Of a stretch of DNA of 64,000 bases, positions 8,147 through 26,924 are shown piece after piece. The DNA lies in contig NC_016941.1 of assembly GCF_000236925.1 (NCBI RefSeq), forward strand, positions 186,001 through 250,000, read 5' to 3'. This DNA comes from Staphylococcus argenteus. GTDB taxonomy: Bacteria > Bacillota > Bacilli > Staphylococcales > Staphylococcaceae. Within the stretch, counting starts at the first letter, position 1. The number at the start of each line of letters is the position of its first letter. The notes beneath the pieces are model-generated. The model did no database searches and had not been told where the DNA came from. It worked only from the letters and a program-made list of their open reading frames with translations. Both the position numbers and the translations under genes were made by a program.

Positions 8147-10192
8147 TTATTTAGCTTCAAACAATTGATCTCCAAATGCAATGTTGCCGTGTTCACCTTG
8201 TTTGAAATCAAGATTTGTAATATTGCCTTGAGTAACAATGATTGGTGTAATGTCGCTCTTCGCATTATTACGAATATAGTCTAAATCAAAGTTGATTAAT
8301 AAATCACCTTGTTTAACTTCTTGACCTTCCTCAACATGTAAAGTAAAGCCTTCTCCGTTTAATTTAACAGTGTCTAAACCGATGTGGATTAATAGTTCTA
8401 AACCACTATCTGATACAAGACCAATTGCATGTTTTGTTGGGAAAATCATTTGTACTTTACCGTTGAATGGTGCACGAACTTCACCTTGTGAAGGTTTAAT
8501 AGCGATACCGTCACCCATCATTTTTTCGCTGAACACTTGATCAGGCACTTCTGATAATGGTGTTACTTCACCAGTTAATGGTGCATGAACGATATGGCTC
8601 AATTCGCTTGTTGCAGATTTATCTTCTGCAACAACAACAGTTTCGTCTTTATCGTCTTCCATAGTAGTAGGGTTTTCTACTACTTGACCATTCATAATTT
8701 GTTGCATTTCGTGCTTGATTTGGTCAGATTTAGGACCAAAAATAGCTTGCATATTATTACCAACTTCTAAAACACCAGAAGCACCTAAGTCTTTTAGACC
8801 AGGAACATCAACTTTAGATTTGTCGTTAACTTCAACACGTAGGCGTGTGATACAAGCGTCTAAATGCTTAATGTTTGCTTTTCCACCCATAGCTTCTAAT
8901 ACTGCATATGGTAATTCAGTTGCTGAAGCAGTAGCTGCTTGTGATTGTTTATCTTCACGACCTGGTGTTTTATATTTTAATTTTACAATTAGGAATCGGA
9001 ATACGAAGTAGTAAATAACTGCGTATACAAGACCTACAGGAATGACTAACCACCATTGCGTCTTATTTGGTAGCACGCCGAGTAAGAAGTAATCGATGAA
9101 ACCACCTGAGAATGTATAACCTAAGTGAACATCTAATAAGTACAATGTTAAGAATGATAAACCATCAAGTACTGCGTGAATAAAGAATAATAATGGTGCT
9201 ACGAATAAGAATGAGAATTCTAAAGGTTCTGTAATACCAGTTAAGAATGATGTTAAAGCTGCAGAACCCATTAAACCTGCTACTACTTTTTTATTTTCAG
9301 GTTTAGCTGTGTGATAAATTGCTAAAGCTGCTGCAGGTAAACCGAACATCATAACAGGGAATTCACCTTGCATGAATTTACCAGCCGTTAAATGTGCACC
9401 TTCACGAATTTGTTCGATAAAGATACGTTGGTCACCGTGAATAATGTCACCAGCTGCATTTTTCCATGAACCAAACTCGAACCAGAACGGTGCGTGGAAA
9501 ATATGGTGCAGTCCGAATGGAATTAATAAACGCTTAATGAAACCGAATAAGAAGACGGCAACGCCAGTATTTGAATCTAATAATCCTGTACTGAATGCAT
9601 TTAAGCCTGATTGAATCGTTGGCCAAATTAATGCCATTGGGAATGCTAATATAAATGATGTTGTAGCCATCATAATAGGCACGAAACGCTTACCAGCGAA
9701 GAAACCTAAATAAGATGGTAAGTTAATGTTATAGAACTTGTTATAACACCAAGCTGCCAGGGCCCCGATAATAATACCGCCGAATACACCTGTTTGTAAT
9801 GTTGGGATACCTAAAATGCTAGCGTAACCACTCGCTGGATCACCTATGTTTTTAGGTGTTACTTGTAAAAAGTCTCCCATTGTTTTGTTCATGATTATGT
9901 AACCGACAAATGCTGCGATAGCTGCTACACCATCACCGCCAGCTAATCCAATTGCGACACCTAATGCGAAAATCATAGGCAAGTTATCAAAAATGATACC
10001 ACCAGCACCTGTCATTAATTTAGCGACAGTTTGTACGCCACCATTTTGTATAAAAGGCAAGTAGTGTTGTAATGATTCGCCTTGCATAGCTGTACCAATA
10101 GCTAATAAAAGACCGGCTGCTGGTAAAATTGCAACAGGTAACATTAAAGCTTTACCGATACGTTGCAATTGACCGAATATTTTCTTTCTCAC
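8147..10192 (-). CDS. ptsG: PTS glucose-specific EIICBA component
   Basis: A 681-residue fused permease. The membrane IIC domain (about 1-400) is followed by IIB with the phosphorylated Cys in [14 protein letters not shown] and IIA with the active His in [12 protein letters not shown]. It takes up and phosphorylates glucose using phosphate from HPr. The open frame reaches a TTG at 10207, but that codon lies in the ribosome site. The GTG at 10192 ([10 protein letters not shown]) is eight bases after GGAGG and is chosen. The leader of about 190 bases carries a GlcT-type antiterminator/terminator pair, and the promoter overlaps a perfect cre, so both glucose-dependent antitermination and CcpA control are likely. 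It is also known as glcA in S. aureus. Confidence 0.95.
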
Positions 10193-18910: not shown

Positions 18911-20485
18911 TTATTTTGTAATGACAGGCACTGCTGAAATAAGTTGTTTTGCATAGTCTGATTGCGGATGTTTGATAATATCTTCTGTGTTATTAAGTTC
19001 AACGATCTCACCATTTTTCATCACTGCAACGCGATCACATATTTCATTGATGACGCCCATGTCGTGTGTGATGAATAAATAAGTGATGCCAAAATCTAAC
19101 TGTAATTGTTTTAATAAATCGATGATATCTTTTTGGATTGAAACGTCTAAAGCTGACACTGCCTCGTCGCAAACAATTAGTTTAGGTTCTACAGCGAGTG
19201 CTCTCGCGATACTTACACGTTGGCGTTGTCCACCAGATAACTCATGTGGATAACGATATAAGAAGCTTTGATCTAGGCCAACTTTTTCTAACAAGGATAC
19301 GACAGTTTTAATCATATCATCATCTTTTATTTTCCCATGAATAATAAGAGCTCGTTTAATTACATCAATGACTTTAAATCTTGGATTGATAGATGCGAAT
19401 GGATCTTGGAAAATCATTTGAATGTCTTGGCGTAAAGGTTTCAATTCCTTAGCAGGTACATTGTTATACCAAATAAAGCCTTCTGACACATCCTTTAGAC
19501 CGACGACCGTCTTACCTAAAGTTGATTTTCCTGAACCTGACTCCCCAACGATACCTAATGTTTCACCTTTCCTAATAGCTAAGTTTATATCTCTAACTGC
19601 TCGGAATATGCTGCCATTCGGTGATGTATAATCTACGCTCACGTGATCGAATTTTAATAAAATATCATTACTTAATTGTCTTGGCGGACGAGTTTGATGA
19701 ATATTAGGAATCGCATCAATCAAGCGTTTCGTATATGTATGTTGCGGTGATTTAAAGATACTTTCAACCGTACCACTTTCAACGACACTTCCATCTTTCA
19801 TTACAATCACATCGTCGCAAAATTGATACACAGCGCCTAAATCGTGTGTGATAAAAATAATAGATGTTTCTGTGTACTCATAAAGGGACTTCATTAACTG
19901 CAGTAATTGATTTTGTGTACTTGCATCTAATGCTGTTGTTGGTTCATCTGCGATTAAAATTTGTGGTTTTAAAATTAAGGCAATTGTTATCATGACACGT
20001 TGACGCATACCACCAGAAAGTTCATGTGGATAAGCATTAAATTGACGTGTCGCATCTTTAATTCCAACTTTATCTAAAATATCGATGGCCATCGACTTTG
20101 CTTCTGACTTTGATACACGTTTATGTTGAAATAGAACTTCTGTAATTTGCTTGCCAATCGTTAATCTTGGATTTAAAGAGGAAAGTGGATCTTGAAAAAT
20201 CATCGAGATATCTTTTCCTCGAATTTGTCTTAATGATGCAGAGGTTAATTCTGTTAGTACTTTACCGTCAAAAATAATTTCTCCAGTTAAAGTATGATCT
20301 GGATAATCTGGTAATAGACCTAAAATTGATTTTGCCGTAATACTTTTACCTGATCCAGATTCACCAACTATACCTAAAATATGTTTTTTTCGTAATTCGA
20401 AAGAGACATTTTTTACCGCTTGAACTGTAGTTTCATCATAATTGAATTGTACATTCAGACTGTTGACTTTTAATAAATTTGACAT
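18911..20485 (-). CDS. gisA: Glutathione/peptide ABC importer, double ATPase subunit
   Basis: 524 residues formed by two fused ABC ATPase domains of the Opp/Dpp type. Domain 1 has Walker A GESGSGKS (41-48), signature LSGGMRQR and Walker B ILIADEPTT. Domain 2 (from about 285) has [16 protein letters not shown] and LIVCDEAVSALD. Both look active. It powers the importer formed with the permeases and lipoprotein encoded divergently at 20574-24881. This locus is the S. aureus glutathione import system (GisABCD-Ggt), which supplies nutrient sulphur. The start is ATG 20485 behind GGGAGG. Confidence 0.92.
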   Translation of the reverse strand: MSNLLKVNSLNVQFNYDETTVQAVKNVSFELRKKHILGIVGESGSGKSITAKSILGLLPDYPDHTLTGEIIFDGKVLTELTSASLRQIRGKDISMIFQDPLSSLNPRLTIGKQITEVLFQHKRVSKSEAKSMAIDILDKVGIKDATRQFNAYPHELSGGMRQRVMITIALILKPQILIADEPTTALDASTQNQLLQLMKSLYEYTETSIIFITHDLGAVYQFCDDVIVMKDGSVVESGTVESIFKSPQHTYTKRLIDAIPNIHQTRPPRQLSNDILLKFDHVSVDYTSPNGSIFRAVRDINLAIRKGETLGIVGESGSGKSTLGKTVVGLKDVSEGFIWYNNVPAKELKPLRQDIQMIFQDPFASINPRFKVIDVIKRALIIHGKIKDDDMIKTVVSLLEKVGLDQSFLYRYPHELSGGQRQRVSIARALAVEPKLIVCDEAVSALDVSIQKDIIDLLKQLQLDFGITYLFITHDMGVINEICDRVAVMKNGEIVELNNTEDIIKHPQSDYAKQLISAVPVITK

Positions 20486-20573
20486 GATGTTGTGCCTCCC
20501 TATTCACAAATGTGTAAATTTATTCTATACTTTTGTATATCATAGTAATCTACTCAAGATTATTTTACAAGGA

Positions 20574-21920
20574 GTGATTATCATAATTACTTATTCAAAG
20601 TCATTTAAGTTGTTGTATCATAAGGCATTTTATAGGGTTATACTTTCGGTATTGAGCTTACCAATATTTTTATATGCAGTGATTGGTTTTGCTTTTTCAA
20701 CTAAGAGAAAAAAATTTTACGCTAATAATTCTGAAATTTCAGAAATCGAACAAGCGTTACAAGAAAAATATAAATATTTGTCTCAGCTAAAGTCGACTAC
20801 ACAAATACATAGAGAAGCAATCAAAATATTCAAGACGCAAAGGTCTAATACCAACTTTAATAGCATTGAACAAGCGCATTTTTCATCATACTTTGAAAAT
20901 GTATTGTTCCACAAGTTCATCATTATCAAAGTGGTATTGGCTTTACCACTGTTCGTTATGCTGACATTTTATTTACAGCCATTAGTTAGGTATATTTTCG
21001 AACGCATCATTATGGCTGTAATTGTTATTATTGGCGTAATCATTAGTGTCTTTACAATTTTATATTTTTCACCACTTGATGCGGCATATAGCATATTGGG
21101 GCAAAATGCTACAAAGGCACAAATACATCAATTTAATGTATTACATCACCTTAACGAACCTTATTTTATTCAATTGTGGGATACTATCAAAGGCGTTTTT
21201 ACGTTTGATTTAGGTACAACATACAAAGGAAATGAGGTAGTGACAAAAGCGGTTGGCGAGAGAATTCCAATTACAATTCTTATAACAGTATTAGCGTTGA
21301 TTGTGGCACTAATTATTGCGATACCAGTAGGGATTATTAGTGCGATGAAGAGAAATAGTTGGCTTGATATCACATTGATGACGATAGCTTTAATTGGTTT
21401 ATCCATTCCAAGTTTCTGGCAAGGGCTATTGTTTATTTTGGCGTTCTCATTGAAATTGGATATTTTACCACCGTCTTATATTCCAGAACATCCAATATCG
21501 TTGATTTTAACTGTACTTGTCATTGGAACAAGTATTGCTGCTTCTATAACGCGTATGACAAGGTCTTCAGTTCTTGAAGTTATGCGTAGTGATTATGTAT
21601 TAACGGCTTATGCAAAAGGGCTATCGACGACGCAAGTAGTTATTAAGCACATTTTAAAAAATGCAATCGTTCCAATTGTGACGCTAGTCGGTCTATTAGT
21701 GGCGGAGTTACTGGGTGGCTCAGCTGTGACGGAACAAGTATTTAATATTAATGGTATCGGTCGCTATATTGTTCAAAAACAACTTATACCTGATATCCCA
21801 GCGGTCATGGGTGGGGTCGTATATATATCAATAGTTATTTCATTATCAAATTTAATCATTGATATTTTCTATACGCTTATCGATCCAAAATTACGTAGTG
21901 AAATTAACGAAAGGAAGTGA
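20574..21920 (+). CDS. gisB: Glutathione ABC importer permease (DppB-type) with N-terminal extension
   Basis: About 448 residues. The C-terminal ~315 residues are a DppB/OppB-type permease (RYIFERIIMAVIVIIGVIIS onward, with the ATPase-contact loop YVLTAYAKGLSTTQVVIKHI). Ahead of it are about 125 extra residues with two membrane segments around a charged helix. The start is uncertain. The frame extends back to 20442 inside gisA, but AAGGAG at 20569-20574 is the only good ribosome site, and the codons correctly spaced behind it are ATT, ATC and ATA. The GTG at 20574 given here overlaps that site. Confidence 0.85.
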   Translation: MIIIITYSKSFKLLYHKAFYRVILSVLSLPIFLYAVIGFAFSTKRKKFYANNSEISEIEQALQEKYKYLSQLKSTTQIHREAIKIFKTQRSNTNFNSIEQAHFSSYFENVLFHKFIIIKVVLALPLFVMLTFYLQPLVRYIFERIIMAVIVIIGVIISVFTILYFSPLDAAYSILGQNATKAQIHQFNVLHHLNEPYFIQLWDTIKGVFTFDLGTTYKGNEVVTKAVGERIPITILITVLALIVALIIAIPVGIISAMKRNSWLDITLMTIALIGLSIPSFWQGLLFILAFSLKLDILPPSYIPEHPISLILTVLVIGTSIAASITRMTRSSVLEVMRSDYVLTAYAKGLSTTQVVIKHILKNAIVPIVTLVGLLVAELLGGSAVTEQVFNINGIGRYIVQKQLIPDIPAVMGGVVYISIVISLSNLIIDIFYTLIDPKLRSEINERK

Positions 21921-21925
21921 GGCAT

Positions 21926-23089
21926 ATGGTAAAAGTTACAACAAAGATAGCTTCCTTAAAATTATTCGCAAGTTATGCCATAGCAACATATATTTTAGTC
22001 ATTTTAACAAGTGCTTTAAATATTTTTAAAGGATATGTGGCAGATACGTTTTATATTGCTGAAACGTTGTTAATCATCTTAACCATTGCGTTAATTATTA
22101 TCGTAGTAACTGAATCAAATTGGAAAAGGCATGTCACATGGCGTCGTTTCATTGAAGTGTTGTTACTGTTGATGGCTTTAACAGGGAATGTATTCACTTT
22201 ATTAATGTTTGTAAGTGTTAGACGTTATCAACGTACATCGCAAATACATAGTTATAACGGTTGGGAAGCATTTATACGAAAAATTGTTAAACATCGTATT
22301 GCTATTATTGGATTATTTGTTTTAGTTTACATGCTGTCATTATCAATCGTGTCTCAATTTACGTTTGATACGTCATTGGCTACTAAAAATCAGTTTAATG
22401 CACTATTACATGCACCAAGTCTAGCCTATCCGTTTGGTACTGATGATTTCGGTAGAGATTTATTTACACGTGTTGTTGTAGGGACGAAACTGACATTTTC
22501 AATATCAATCATCTCTGTGATTATCGCAGTTATTTTTGGTGTGCTACTAGGCACAATTGCCGGTTATTTTAATCATATTGATAATTTAGTGATGCGTATT
22601 TTAGATATTGTGTTTGCAATTCCATCATTATTGTTAGCGGTGGCAATTATTGCTTCTTTTGGCACAAGTATTCCAAATTTAATTATTGCGCTAAGTATTG
22701 GAAATATACCATCATTTGCGCGAACAATGCGTGCAAGTGTTTTAGAGATTAAACGTATGGAATATGTAGATGCAGCACGTGTTACAGGAGAAAATACTTG
22801 GCGTATTATATGGCATTATATTTTACCGAATGCAATTGCACCAATGATTGTACGCTTTTCTTTAAACATAGGTGTTGTTGTATTAACAACAAGCAGTTTA
22901 AGTTTCTTAGGACTTGGCGTTGCGCCTGACGTAGCGGAATGGGGTAACATTTTGCGTACCGGTAGTAACTATTTAGAAACACACAGTAACTTAGCTATAG
23001 TACCTGGTATTTGTATTATGTTCGTCGTTTTAGCATTTAATTTTATAGGTGATGCAGTGCGAGATGCACTTGATCCAAAAATTCATTAA
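21926..23089 (+). CDS. gisC: Glutathione ABC importer permease (DppC-type) with N-terminal extension
   Basis: 387 residues. The C-terminal ~280 form a DppC/OppC permease with YPFGTDDFGRDLFTRVVVG, the coupling loop EYVDAARVTGENTWRIIWHY and SSLSFLGLGVAPDVAEWG. The first ~100 residues add three membrane segments not found in a typical DppC of about 300 residues. ATG 21926 is chosen; a GTG at 21917 would overlap the gisB stop by four bases but lacks ribosome-site spacing. The end is close to gisD, giving a compact operon. Confidence 0.9.
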   Translation: MVKVTTKIASLKLFASYAIATYILVILTSALNIFKGYVADTFYIAETLLIILTIALIIIVVTESNWKRHVTWRRFIEVLLLLMALTGNVFTLLMFVSVRRYQRTSQIHSYNGWEAFIRKIVKHRIAIIGLFVLVYMLSLSIVSQFTFDTSLATKNQFNALLHAPSLAYPFGTDDFGRDLFTRVVVGTKLTFSISIISVIIAVIFGVLLGTIAGYFNHIDNLVMRILDIVFAIPSLLLAVAIIASFGTSIPNLIIALSIGNIPSFARTMRASVLEIKRMEYVDAARVTGENTWRIIWHYILPNAIAPMIVRFSLNIGVVVLTTSSLSFLGLGVAPDVAEWGNILRTGSNYLETHSNLAIVPGICIMFVVLAFNFIGDAVRDALDPKIH

Positions 23090-23105: not shown

Positions 23106-24881
23106 GTGAAAAGAATCATTAGTATCGCAATTATAGTGTTAGCGTTGGTATTAAGTGGTTGTGGTGTCCCTACGAAATCAGAAGTGGCTCAAACATCATC
23201 GAAAGTAGAAGTAAAAGGTGAGCGACCAACGATACATTTCCTAGGACAAGCAAGTTATGAGAACGATATGAATATCGTTAAAGATCAGTTGGAAAATGCA
23301 GGATTTAACGTCAAGATGAATATTCAACCAGATTATGGTAGTTATCGCACGCAACGTCAAGCAGGCAATTATGATATTCAAATTGATGACTGGATGACGG
23401 TATTTGGTGACCCGAACTATGCTATGACGGCATTATTTAGTTCTACAGGATCAAATAGTTTATTAAAAGATAAGCATGTGGATGAGTTATTAAATAAAGC
23501 TTCTACTCAAAATGAAGTAGACGTTAAACAAACATATAAACAAATTGAAGATGAAGTTGTATTTGATAAAGGATATATGGCGCCTTTATACGGATCAAAA
23601 AAGAATTTAGTATATGACAATAAAGTATTGGATAAAAATAGCGTTGGATTGCCAAATTCACGTGCGCTAATATGGCAACAATTTGATTACAACAATAGTA
23701 AAGAACGAGATACGCGGCCACTTGTGATGACACAACAAGATGGCGAAATTCCAACATTGGATCCAATACGTTCAATTGCACCATCAGTATATTCAATTAA
23801 TATGAATATGTACACAAGGTTATTATTATTAGATGAAAATGACCACTTAACAACAAAAGGTTCGTTAAGTCGTGACTATGCTGTTAATAAGGACAATAAA
23901 GCATTTTATTTCTTACTTAGAGATGACGATTATTTTGCGAAAGTAGTTAATGCAGAAGCGCGCAATACTGGTGAACGTGTGTCGGCTGAAGATGTTAAAT
24001 TTTCTTTAGATAGAGCTCGTGATAAAAAGTCAGTGCCTAACAATAATACGTACAATATGCATAAACATATTAATGACATCAAGATATTAACTGATGATGA
24101 CATTAATCAGTTGCGCAAAGAAAAAGATAAAGACGATAAATCTATCTATGACAAGTTGATAAAAGCTTATAATGTCAAATCGTTAACAACAGATGGTCAA
24201 AAAGTAAATAATAAAGATGGGATTTATCAAATAGTTAAAATTACAACTGATCAATCGATGCCTCGAGAAGTGAATTATTTAACACATTCTTCGGCAGGTA
24301 TTTTATCTAAAAAATTTGTTACTGAAGTAAATCATCAATATCCAAAGGGCTATGGTGATAGCAGTACATTTCCTGCTACTTCAGATGGTAAAAATGGACT
24401 ATATGCGAGTGGTGCATACATTATGACACAGAAAAATACCTATCAAGCAGAGTTTCAACGTAATCCTGGATTCAACGAAACAGAACAAGATAGCTATGGT
24501 CCAGCAAAAATTAAAAATATCACATTGAAATTTAATGGTGATCCTAATAATGCATTGTCAGAACTTCGAAACCATTCAATTGATATGTTGGCAGATGTGA
24601 ATCAAAAACATTTTGATTTAATTAAGTCAGATAAAAATTTAAGTATTATACGTAAAAATGGACGTAAGTCAGTCTTTTTAATGCTTAATATTAAAAAAGG
24701 TATATTTAAGACACATCCAAACTTAAGACAAGCTGTTGTAAACGCGATCGATCAGGATCAATTTATTAAGTTTTATCGTGGTGACAAATTTAAAATTGCA
24801 TCACCGATTACACCACTTGTTGACACAGGCAATGTTCAACATCAAGACTTAGAAAAAGCAGAGAAAGCCATTAATCAATAA
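23106..24881 (+). CDS. gisD: Glutathione-binding lipoprotein, family 5 solute-binding protein with permuted domain order
   Basis: 591 residues, GTG start five bases after AGGTAGGGA. A lipoprotein signal (lipobox LSGC, Cys19) anchors it outside the membrane. The substrate-binding fold is present but in unusual order. Residues 40-196 resemble the last third of DppA/OppA-type proteins (GxY-to-FGDPNY region, then ELLNKA and the final strand). Residues 205-591 start like the mature N-terminus (PTLDPIRS, NMYTRLLLLDENDHL, VSAEDVKFSLDRA) and finish with LRQAVVNAIDQDQFI and DLEKAEKAI, which normally lie in the middle. An RGD tripeptide occurs near residue 564. It delivers glutathione to GisBC. Confidence 0.9.
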   Translation: MKRIISIAIIVLALVLSGCGVPTKSEVAQTSSKVEVKGERPTIHFLGQASYENDMNIVKDQLENAGFNVKMNIQPDYGSYRTQRQAGNYDIQIDDWMTVFGDPNYAMTALFSSTGSNSLLKDKHVDELLNKASTQNEVDVKQTYKQIEDEVVFDKGYMAPLYGSKKNLVYDNKVLDKNSVGLPNSRALIWQQFDYNNSKERDTRPLVMTQQDGEIPTLDPIRSIAPSVYSINMNMYTRLLLLDENDHLTTKGSLSRDYAVNKDNKAFYFLLRDDDYFAKVVNAEARNTGERVSAEDVKFSLDRARDKKSVPNNNTYNMHKHINDIKILTDDDINQLRKEKDKDDKSIYDKLIKAYNVKSLTTDGQKVNNKDGIYQIVKITTDQSMPREVNYLTHSSAGILSKKFVTEVNHQYPKGYGDSSTFPATSDGKNGLYASGAYIMTQKNTYQAEFQRNPGFNETEQDSYGPAKIKNITLKFNGDPNNALSELRNHSIDMLADVNQKHFDLIKSDKNLSIIRKNGRKSVFLMLNIKKGIFKTHPNLRQAVVNAIDQDQFIKFYRGDKFKIASPITPLVDTGNVQHQDLEKAEKAINQ

Positions 24882-24917
24882 TATTTTAATGATTTCAAGA
24901 AAGTAGGAGGATAACAT

Positions 24918-26924
24918 ATGGTCATTAACTTAAATGATAAACAGAAAACAACATCTAAAGAAGGGTTAATTTCCGTGTCGCATCCTCTTGCTGCTAAAAT
25001 TGGTAAGGGTGTATTAGACAAAGGCGGCAATGCTATGGATGCAGTAATTGCGATTCAACTGGCATTGAATGTGGTAGAACCATTTGCATCAGGTATAGGT
25101 GGAGGCGGGTACTTACTCTATTATGAGCAAAGTACTGGCAGTATAACTGCGTTTGATGCGCGTGAAGCTGCACCTGCACATATTGATCAGGAATTTTATT
25201 TAAATGATTCAGGCGAATATAAATCGTTTTTTGATATGACTACACATGGTAAAACTGTGGCAGTACCGGCAATTCCGAAGCTGTTCGATTATATTCATAA
25301 GCATTATGCTAAGTTTTCATTAGAGGAATTAATCAATCCTGCAATTGAGTTAGCTATGGAAGGTCATTCTGCTAATTGGGCTACTGAAAAATATTCGCGC
25401 CAGCAACATGCAAGGTTGACAAAGTATCACGAAACGGCGCAAGTATTTACGAATAAAAATCGCTATTGGCGTGAAGATGACTGGATTATACAACCCGAAA
25501 TAGGCAAGACATTTCAAATATTAAAAGAGCATGGATTTAATGCATTTTATAAAGGTGACATTGCGGAAAAGTTAGTAAAGGTTGTTAAAAAATATGGTGG
25601 CACAATCACTTTAGAGGACTTAGCAAATTATGACATTCAGATTAAAACACCAATTAGTGCGACGTTTAAAGATTATGATATTTATTCAATGGGGCCATCT
25701 AGTTCCGGCGGTATCACAGTTATTCAAATATTGAAGTTATTAGAGCATGTCGATCTACCTTCAATGGGAGCAAGATCTGTCGATTATTTGCACTATTTAA
25801 TACAAGCTATGCATTTAGCATATAGTGATCGTGCACAGTTTTTGGCAGATGATAACTTTCATGATGTACCTGTAGAGTCATTAATTGATGACGACTATTT
25901 AAATACACGCAGTAAGCTCATTGATAGTGATAAAGCAAATATCGATATAGAACATGGCGCTATTTCAGATTGCATAATTCATACAGATGTTGATGAAAAT
26001 CATACCGAAACAACACATTTTTGTGTAATTGATAAAGAAGGTAATATTGCTTCATTTACGACGTCAATCGGTATGATTTACGGTTCAGGTATCACTATTC
26101 CAGGATATGGCGTGTTATTAAATACGACAATGGATGGTTTTGATGTAGTAGCAGGTGGAATCAACGAAATTGCATCATATAAACGACCTCTAAGTAATAT
26201 GGCTCCAACGATTGTGACACATCACGGTAAACCGATATTAACGGTAGGTGCACTTGGTGCCATAAGTATTATTGCTAGCGTCGCACAAACATTGATCAAT
26301 GTCTTAGTGTTTGGGATGGACATTCAACAAGCTATTGATGAACCTAGAATTTATAGTAGTCATCCTAATCGTATCGAATGGGAGCCTCAATTTTCACAAT
26401 CTACAATATTAGCATTGATTGCACGTGGACATGCGATGGAAAGTAAACCAGATGCCTATATTGGAGATGTGCATGGATTACAGGTTGATTCGAATACACG
26501 TGAAGCTTCGGGAGGGGCTGATGACACGAGAGAGGGTACTGTGATGGGTGGCGATGTGTTAACGATTAGAAAACAACCATTACCTATTTCAAAAATGTAT
26601 GATAATGACGCCTATCATGTATATTTCAATAATGTGCAGTTACCATTATTAGCAGATCAAGTACGATGGATGCATGACAAATGTTGGATTGAGGAAAGTG
26701 TCGTTAGAATCATTTTGTCTGGAGTTAGTGCACATGTTGAAGATTTGAGAAGCTATGAAATCGCCGGAGAAAATTATATAGATATTGCCTGGTTGGCACG
26801 GAAGAAAGGTTATCAAGTTACCTTAAAGGATGACAGTTTATATTTAAGTGATGAATCGTATCATTCAGTAAAAAGAAATACAAATGCGTATTATCGATAT
26901 GATCGAGATAGCATTACAAGGTAA
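24918..26924 (+). CDS. ggt: Gamma-glutamyltransferase/hydrolase with extra C-terminal domain
   Basis: 668 residues, ATG after AGGAGGATAACAT. It is an Ntn-hydrolase proenzyme. The motif ENHTETTHFCVID holds the Thr at which the precursor would cleave itself and which then acts as nucleophile. ASGIGGGGYLLYY and KRPLSNMAPTIV are family motifs. It splits glutathione into glutamate and cysteinylglycine. There is no signal peptide or membrane segment, so it is predicted to act in the cytosol on imported substrate. About 90 residues after 575 go beyond a normal Ggt and look like a copper-amine-oxidase-N-type small domain (for example NYIDIAWLARKKGYQVTL). It is the last gene of the gis operon. Confidence 0.92.
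   Translation: MVINLNDKQKTTSKEGLISVSHPLAAKIGKGVLDKGGNAMDAVIAIQLALNVVEPFASGIGGGGYLLYYEQSTGSITAFDAREAAPAHIDQEFYLNDSGEYKSFFDMTTHGKTVAVPAIPKLFDYIHKHYAKFSLEELINPAIELAMEGHSANWATEKYSRQQHARLTKYHETAQVFTNKNRYWREDDWIIQPEIGKTFQILKEHGFNAFYKGDIAEKLVKVVKKYGGTITLEDLANYDIQIKTPISATFKDYDIYSMGPSSSGGITVIQILKLLEHVDLPSMGARSVDYLHYLIQAMHLAYSDRAQFLADDNFHDVPVESLIDDDYLNTRSKLIDSDKANIDIEHGAISDCIIHTDVDENHTETTHFCVIDKEGNIASFTTSIGMIYGSGITIPGYGVLLNTTMDGFDVVAGGINEIASYKRPLSNMAPTIVTHHGKPILTVGALGAISIIASVAQTLINVLVFGMDIQQAIDEPRIYSSHPNRIEWEPQFSQSTILALIARGHAMESKPDAYIGDVHGLQVDSNTREASGGADDTREGTVMGGDVLTIRKQPLPISKMYDNDAYHVYFNNVQLPLLADQVRWMHDKCWIEESVVRIILSGVSAHVEDLRSYEIAGENYIDIAWLARKKGYQVTLKDDSLYLSDESYHSVKRNTNAYYRYDRDSITR

Follow-up and report, generated by a model that had tools for sequence, protein, structure and literature searches.

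Is the solute-binding domain of the lipoprotein GisD built in the order usual for its family? The question is raised by gisD, a gene on the forward strand (23106..24881; 591 amino acids, GTG start) of a 64 000 nucleotide stretch of Staphylococcus argenteus DNA (contig NC_016941.1, positions 186 001 to 250 000), referred to here as the window. The locus corresponds to the GisABCD-Ggt system of Staphylococcus aureus (PMC10355420, PMC12510641), and GisD is described with a signal peptide and a lipid attachment site in passages of the paper that named GisABCD (PMC10355420). A preliminary description of this DNA claimed that the domain is circularly permuted, such that its present C-terminus would join a point near residue 40. 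All the tests of order agreed with that claim, and GisD is very probably a naturally circularly permuted family 5 (cluster C) solute-binding lipoprotein; this joint reading takes in the sharing of the permutation by a family, the linkage to partner genes and the predicted fold, anchor and docking.

The chain would begin with a signal peptide and lipid anchor (23106..23162; lipobox LSGC, Cys19), followed by a linker of ∼20 residues and the canonical C-terminal third of a family 5 solute-binding protein (SBP5), now placed first and here called the N-block (residues 41-201; 23226..23708). A short linker from the former C-terminus to the former N-terminus lies between the blocks in alignments (23694..23720, exact limits estimated; near residues 197-205), and the canonical N-terminal two thirds follow as the C-block (residues 204-591; 23715..24878), which ends at the canonical 'DPEKAK' helix. 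All these features lie on the forward strand.

In a Pfam scan SBP_bac_5 (PF00496) matched GisD at 110.5 bits against a curated cut-off of 32.4, and the only other match at E up to 1 was LPAM_1, at 14.7 bits and so under its cut-off of 20. Cys19 of the lipobox was invariant across 23 aligned sequences. Positions 297-367 of the SBP_bac_5 profile fell on window positions 23244-23456 and positions 8-280 on 23871-24893, so that the end of the family is placed first. Across the genome from which the window was taken the same profile gave six stretches, four of them ordinary genes with a single collinear stretch each and two lying in gisD. With a profile built from 44 canonical SBP5 proteins (525 positions), GisD residues 56-174 matched positions 383-505 and residues 211-587 matched positions 46-353. 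Both profiles reject a collinear order for GisD, as in each the later family positions precede the earlier ones and a single collinear match over the whole protein was not obtained; shuffled GisD reached a maximum of 7.7 bits in 1000 trials. GisD is 48-79 amino acids longer than the five E. coli SBP_bac_5 proteins with which it was compared.

Comparisons with proteins of solved structure gave the same order. Sixteen PDB sequences were matched by the N-block, every match lying within residues 324-541 of chains that are 491-564 long, and Helicobacter pylori DppA (6ofq_A) produced three matches to GisD in permuted order, the individual pieces being weak. In structure comparison the C-block (residues 192-591) superposed on residues 1-350 of OppA, and most of it superposed on canonical SBP_bac_5 proteins. 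The N-block matched residues 420-486 of 5u4o, with weak structural agreement. An unrelated domain at residues 40-196 was thereby rejected, as the N-block matches the C-terminal regions of SBP5 proteins in the PDB sequence search and in 5u4o. The superposition on DppA/OppA-type proteins proposed in the preliminary description held for the C-block, and agreement was weak for the N-block.

The permuted order was scored by one fixed criterion in relatives and controls. From the 250 and 1464 proteins retrieved in two database searches, the best 120 of each set gave 197 distinct proteins, GisD included. Permuted order was found in 196 of these 197 (best 120 of the 250 and of the 1464), the exception being a fragment of 482 residues; the source genera included Staphylococcus, Bacillus, Paenibacillus, Kurthia, Viridibacillus, Sporosarcina, Psychrobacillus and others. 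It was found in none of the 44 canonical controls and in none of a panel of 120 SBP5 proteins, which includes most of those 44 (of 134 open frames, 120 qualified as SBP5, and 106 remained once near copies had been removed). A cluster at 90% identity, whose representative is the permuted S. aureus protein P0002, stands for 4289 sequences. Among 398 Bacilli genomes drawn evenly, own genome included, a near-full-length permuted protein was present in 34. The top three candidates per genome were scored; 203 genomes matched at E 0.001 or better, those counted were near-full-length at over 900 bits, and a 3′ remnant in one genome (G356, 358.8 bits) and partial matches taken as canonical SBP5 were set aside. 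In a phylum-wide sample of 398 genomes the N-block was matched four times at E 1e-25 or better, each time in a member of the Bacilli. Four plasmid records carried a C-block match, one of which, from Metabacillus, covered 80% or more of the block. The permutation as a private oddity of S. aureus was not borne out; it is old and common to Bacilli well outside that species.

Three alternative explanations of the order were considered. It is extremely improbable that GisD is an ordinary collinear SBP5 in which the order was misread from weak motifs: the best Pfam stretch taken alone (256-588) does resemble a partial ordinary match, but profile, PDB and structure comparisons place the blocks swapped, and the canonical controls show no swap. 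An assembly artefact, or a rearrangement private to one strain, drew no support from the data, is scarcely conceivable and was rejected, given the permuted order in the P0002 cluster, in 34 of 398 Bacilli genomes and in 196 of 197 proteins (best 120 of 250 and of 1464). The remaining alternative is a chimera, in which the two blocks derive from separate SBP5 genes and a fusion of these mimics a circular permutation. The nearest solved relatives do differ between the blocks (5u4o, MppA and 6npo for the N-block; YliB/GsiB, DppA and GbpA for the C-block), as do the top scorers in the panel, part of which was chosen by one block or the other. However, approximately unbiased (AU) tests, for which the groups were named after the scores had been seen, did not reject a shared placement: the C-block with the best group of the N-block gave p 0.319, and the N-block with the DppA-type group of the C-block gave p 0.562, against p 0.693 with its own best group. 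The scores of the two blocks were also positively correlated in 64 proteins not picked by block score (rho 0.33, p 0.008), and the trees are weak owing to the long family branches (1.7 and 1.9). A chimera is unlikely, and permutation of one gene is the more likely of the two. The ten family members in the trees formed one clade in the N-block tree and one in the C-block tree, which makes a single old event the simplest reading; the Staphylococcus and the Bacillus/Paenibacillus forms most likely inherited the permutation from one event that preceded their split. Tandem-duplication intermediates were not seen among the proteins listed, the longest of which (873 amino acids) were GisC-GisD fusions, and the length window of the search would miss a full double protein. 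P0003, P0004 and P0005, all of 873 amino acids, have a GisC-like start and a GisD-like end, and one of them is labelled S. aureus.

The point at which the canonical chain was opened lies in the gap between the two canonical-profile matches, positions 353-383 of 525. The cut was placed at profile position 368, ∼mature residue 348 of DppA and ∼363 of OppA, where it follows the 'DPEKAK..LLKEAG' helix, at the next strand. Domain III of OppA, which we take to span ∼271-486, would thus be cut in its middle, inside the C-lobe, and both former termini of the canonical protein would presumably lie in domain I. The suggested proximity of both ends to the hinge was not supported, as these boundaries put the break midway through domain III, away from the hinge crossings. 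Because the break is inside the canonical C-lobe, the lipid anchor should sit on the C-lobe rather than on domain I; judged from the sequence, the anchor at Cys19 and its ∼20 linker residues would lead into domain III, and membrane attachment would be through that domain. GisD would be expected to fold as an ordinary two-lobed Venus flytrap, with glutathione, reduced (GSH) or oxidized (GSSG), presumably held between the lobes and then delivered to GisBC. The permuted order might, as the preliminary description proposed, have an effect on glutathione binding.

Residues that might hold the ligand were compared with those of DppA, in which R383 and D436 hold the dipeptide, according to parts of PMC12136057. 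DppA D436 aligned with Val99 of GisD and with a serine of GsiB, and MppA retains the aspartate; no GisD residue could be aligned to DppA R383. Val99 was invariant in the 23 aligned sequences and in all 195 proteins with a readable motif (2 of 197 unread; best 120 of 250 and of 1464). Since Val99 of GisD stands where DppA has its contact aspartate, GisD differs from DppA in its ligand contacts. GsiB (1uqw) and GbpA in complex with GSSG (3m8u) are among the best solved relatives of the C-block, and Val99 and these relatives would suit, without proving, glutathione rather than a dipeptide as the ligand. Mutant growth phenotypes, in the parts of PMC10355420 and PMC12510641 that describe them, support a function in glutathione import. 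Relatives without ggt, the gamma-glutamyltransferase gene, nearby share Val99, and their cargo may be something else. Asp102, in the GDPNY motif (window 23409-23411), was considered as the counterpart of the DppA ligand aspartate and rejected, as that aspartate aligns to Val99. Of the 197 proteins (best 120 of 250 and of 1464), 20 have Asp at residue 102, each of them belonging to the group with at least 65% identity to GisD, while 175 have Asn (GNPDY) and 2 were unread; the difference tracks the ggt-linked group.

The genes around gisD follow the GisABCD-Ggt layout, a divergent gisA and then gisB-gisC-gisD-ggt. gisA (18911..20485, reverse strand) encodes an ATPase with two ATP-binding cassette (ABC) domains. 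The permease genes gisB (20592..21920) and gisC (21917..23089) and, downstream of gisD, ggt (24918..26924) are on the forward strand. BPD_transp_1 matched GisB at residues 243-435, counted from 20592, with BPD_transp_1_N from residue 132, and matched GisC at 208-389. Each permease carries an N-terminal extension with no Pfam match over cut-off. That of GisB is ∼131 residues long (20592..20984, forward strand), and most permease models, the GsiC model included, first match GisB at residue 132. That of GisC (21917..22261, forward strand) is ∼115 residues long and contributes about three additional hydrophobic segments, the best models matching GisC from residues 111-156. A hydropathy scan gave GisB one or two additional hydrophobic segments, and GisC three in Staphylococcus or five to seven in the others. 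Relatives of GisB also carry the extension, at low identity (11-46%). The open frame of gisB begins at a TTG at 20442 (window 20442-20600) and overlaps the start of the divergent gisA; gisB is counted here from a putative start at 20592.

Besides the window locus, homologues of GisA, GisB and GisC adjoined the permuted gene in 24 of 25 loci, the exception being a remnant locus (L057); two of the 25 (L003 and L061) are apparently the same contig. ggt was adjacent in 7 of the 25, and among the loci examined only in those of Staphylococcus type. A profile of the GisC extension matched strongly in 34 of 398 Bacilli genomes, precisely those with the permuted protein, and its matches started 1.2-4.7 kb from the match starts of the permuted gene; neither trait was found without the other in the 398 genomes at the strong thresholds applied. 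The extension profile matched 35 genomes at E 0.001 or better, and the 34 counted did so at E 7.6e-16 or better; one genome (G205, E 5.9e-4, 22 bits) and weak second matches in two others (G060 and G076) were set aside, with at most 12 candidates scored per genome.

On the reading favoured here, the place of the anchor and the additional membrane helices in GisB and GisC would be parts of a single altered mode of docking. GisABCD and its relatives in Bacilli could then be a subclass of their own among peptide-type ABC importers, with a permuted binding protein tethered by its C-lobe and permeases that gained N-terminal membrane helices, the two changes having co-evolved as another means of docking or holding the binding protein; this proposal is made tentatively. 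It may equally be, as a possibility that we take seriously without thinking it probable, that the permutation is neutral and has no mechanical meaning, the permease helices being an unrelated trait of the same operon. Permuted binding proteins can work normally, as TpMglB-2 binds glucose and closes on it in the account given in portions of PMC4990184, and one ancestral operon would yield the same co-occurrence. Against neutrality, both oddities occurred together in 34 of 34 genomes, and neither alone among the 398 at the strong thresholds applied.

Several points weigh against the joint reading of GisD as a permuted, C-lobe-tethered binding protein. The predicted model of the full protein was only fair (predicted local distance difference test, pLDDT, 76; predicted template modelling score, pTM, 0.70), and that of the N-block was weak (pLDDT 65, pTM 0.51). 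Structure alignments of the whole N-block had a root mean square deviation near 13 Å, good superposition being limited to pieces of ∼60 residues. The anchor position was read from chain order and not from measured coordinates. The support for GisD in the relevant parts of PMC10355420 and PMC12510641 is genetic rather than binding by purified GisD, and the joint presence of the permuted protein and the extended permeases could be explained by shared descent.

The only documented natural circular permutation of an importer binding protein found in the literature searched is in TpMglB-2 (Tp0684) of Treponema pallidum, a cluster B lipoprotein of another fold class. As given in portions of PMC4990184, it is permuted by crystal structure and has relatives in Gram-positive bacteria ('Cluster Bc'), and its authors raise anchoring as a possible reason for the permutation. 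Like GisD, whose tethering is predicted from the lipobox, TpMglB-2 is a membrane-tethered binding protein of an ABC importer that shares its permutation with relatives. Unlike GisD, it has the Type I sugar-binding fold, with canonical N-terminal strands moved near the C-terminus; GisD, with Pfam matches to SBP_bac_5 and LPAM_1 only, belongs to family 5 and differs both in fold class and in the permutation itself. No permuted GisD or permuted family 5 protein was found in the literature searched, which leaves out most subscription papers. The word stem 'permut' is absent from the main texts of PMC10355420 and PMC12510641, supplements aside, and in the matching portions of PMC2588589 (a table or legend) and PMC2265533 (a reference list) permutation and binding-protein terms were paired by chance only. 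The permutation of GisD thus appears undescribed in this literature.

DppA, OppA, MppA, GsiB (YliB) and GbpA/HbpA are homologous to both blocks of GisD but have the canonical order. E. coli GsiABCD does the same transport job as GisABCD, and GsiB (1uqw) is the best solved match of the C-block; in contrast, GsiB has the canonical order in the SBP5 panel, the models of the permeases GsiC and GsiD (306 and 303 positions) lack extensions of the GisB/GisC type, and the operon layout differs, as noted in part of PMC10355420. The permuted GisD belongs to an importer of nutrient sulfur in a major pathogen and is also present in many Bacilli, which opens it to study in harmless species. It offers a test of why the chain of a binding protein is re-cut, namely whether docking depends on where the lipid anchor is attached. 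Annotation and modelling call for caution, as a GisD model built on the canonical order would be incorrect and routine Pfam output gives just one block as its best stretch.

Some loci differed in extent or layout. Complete gisABCD-ggt loci were present in S. pasteuri, S. gallinarum and Staphylococcus sp. ACRSN (L003 1785-9834, L004 1797-9933 and L005 1797-9913, respectively), at 58-70% identity; this range differs from that in the relevant passage of PMC10355420, where complete systems are reported exclusively in the S. aureus-related complex. The remnant locus L057 holds a lone frame of 215 amino acids (8186-8833) whose match is confined to the final third of the permuted family and which is apparently a gene remnant, with no GisB or GisC homologue within the 16 kb fetched. 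In another Bacilli locus (L049, 6892-13792) two separate ATPase genes between gisC and gisD replace the fused double ATPase.
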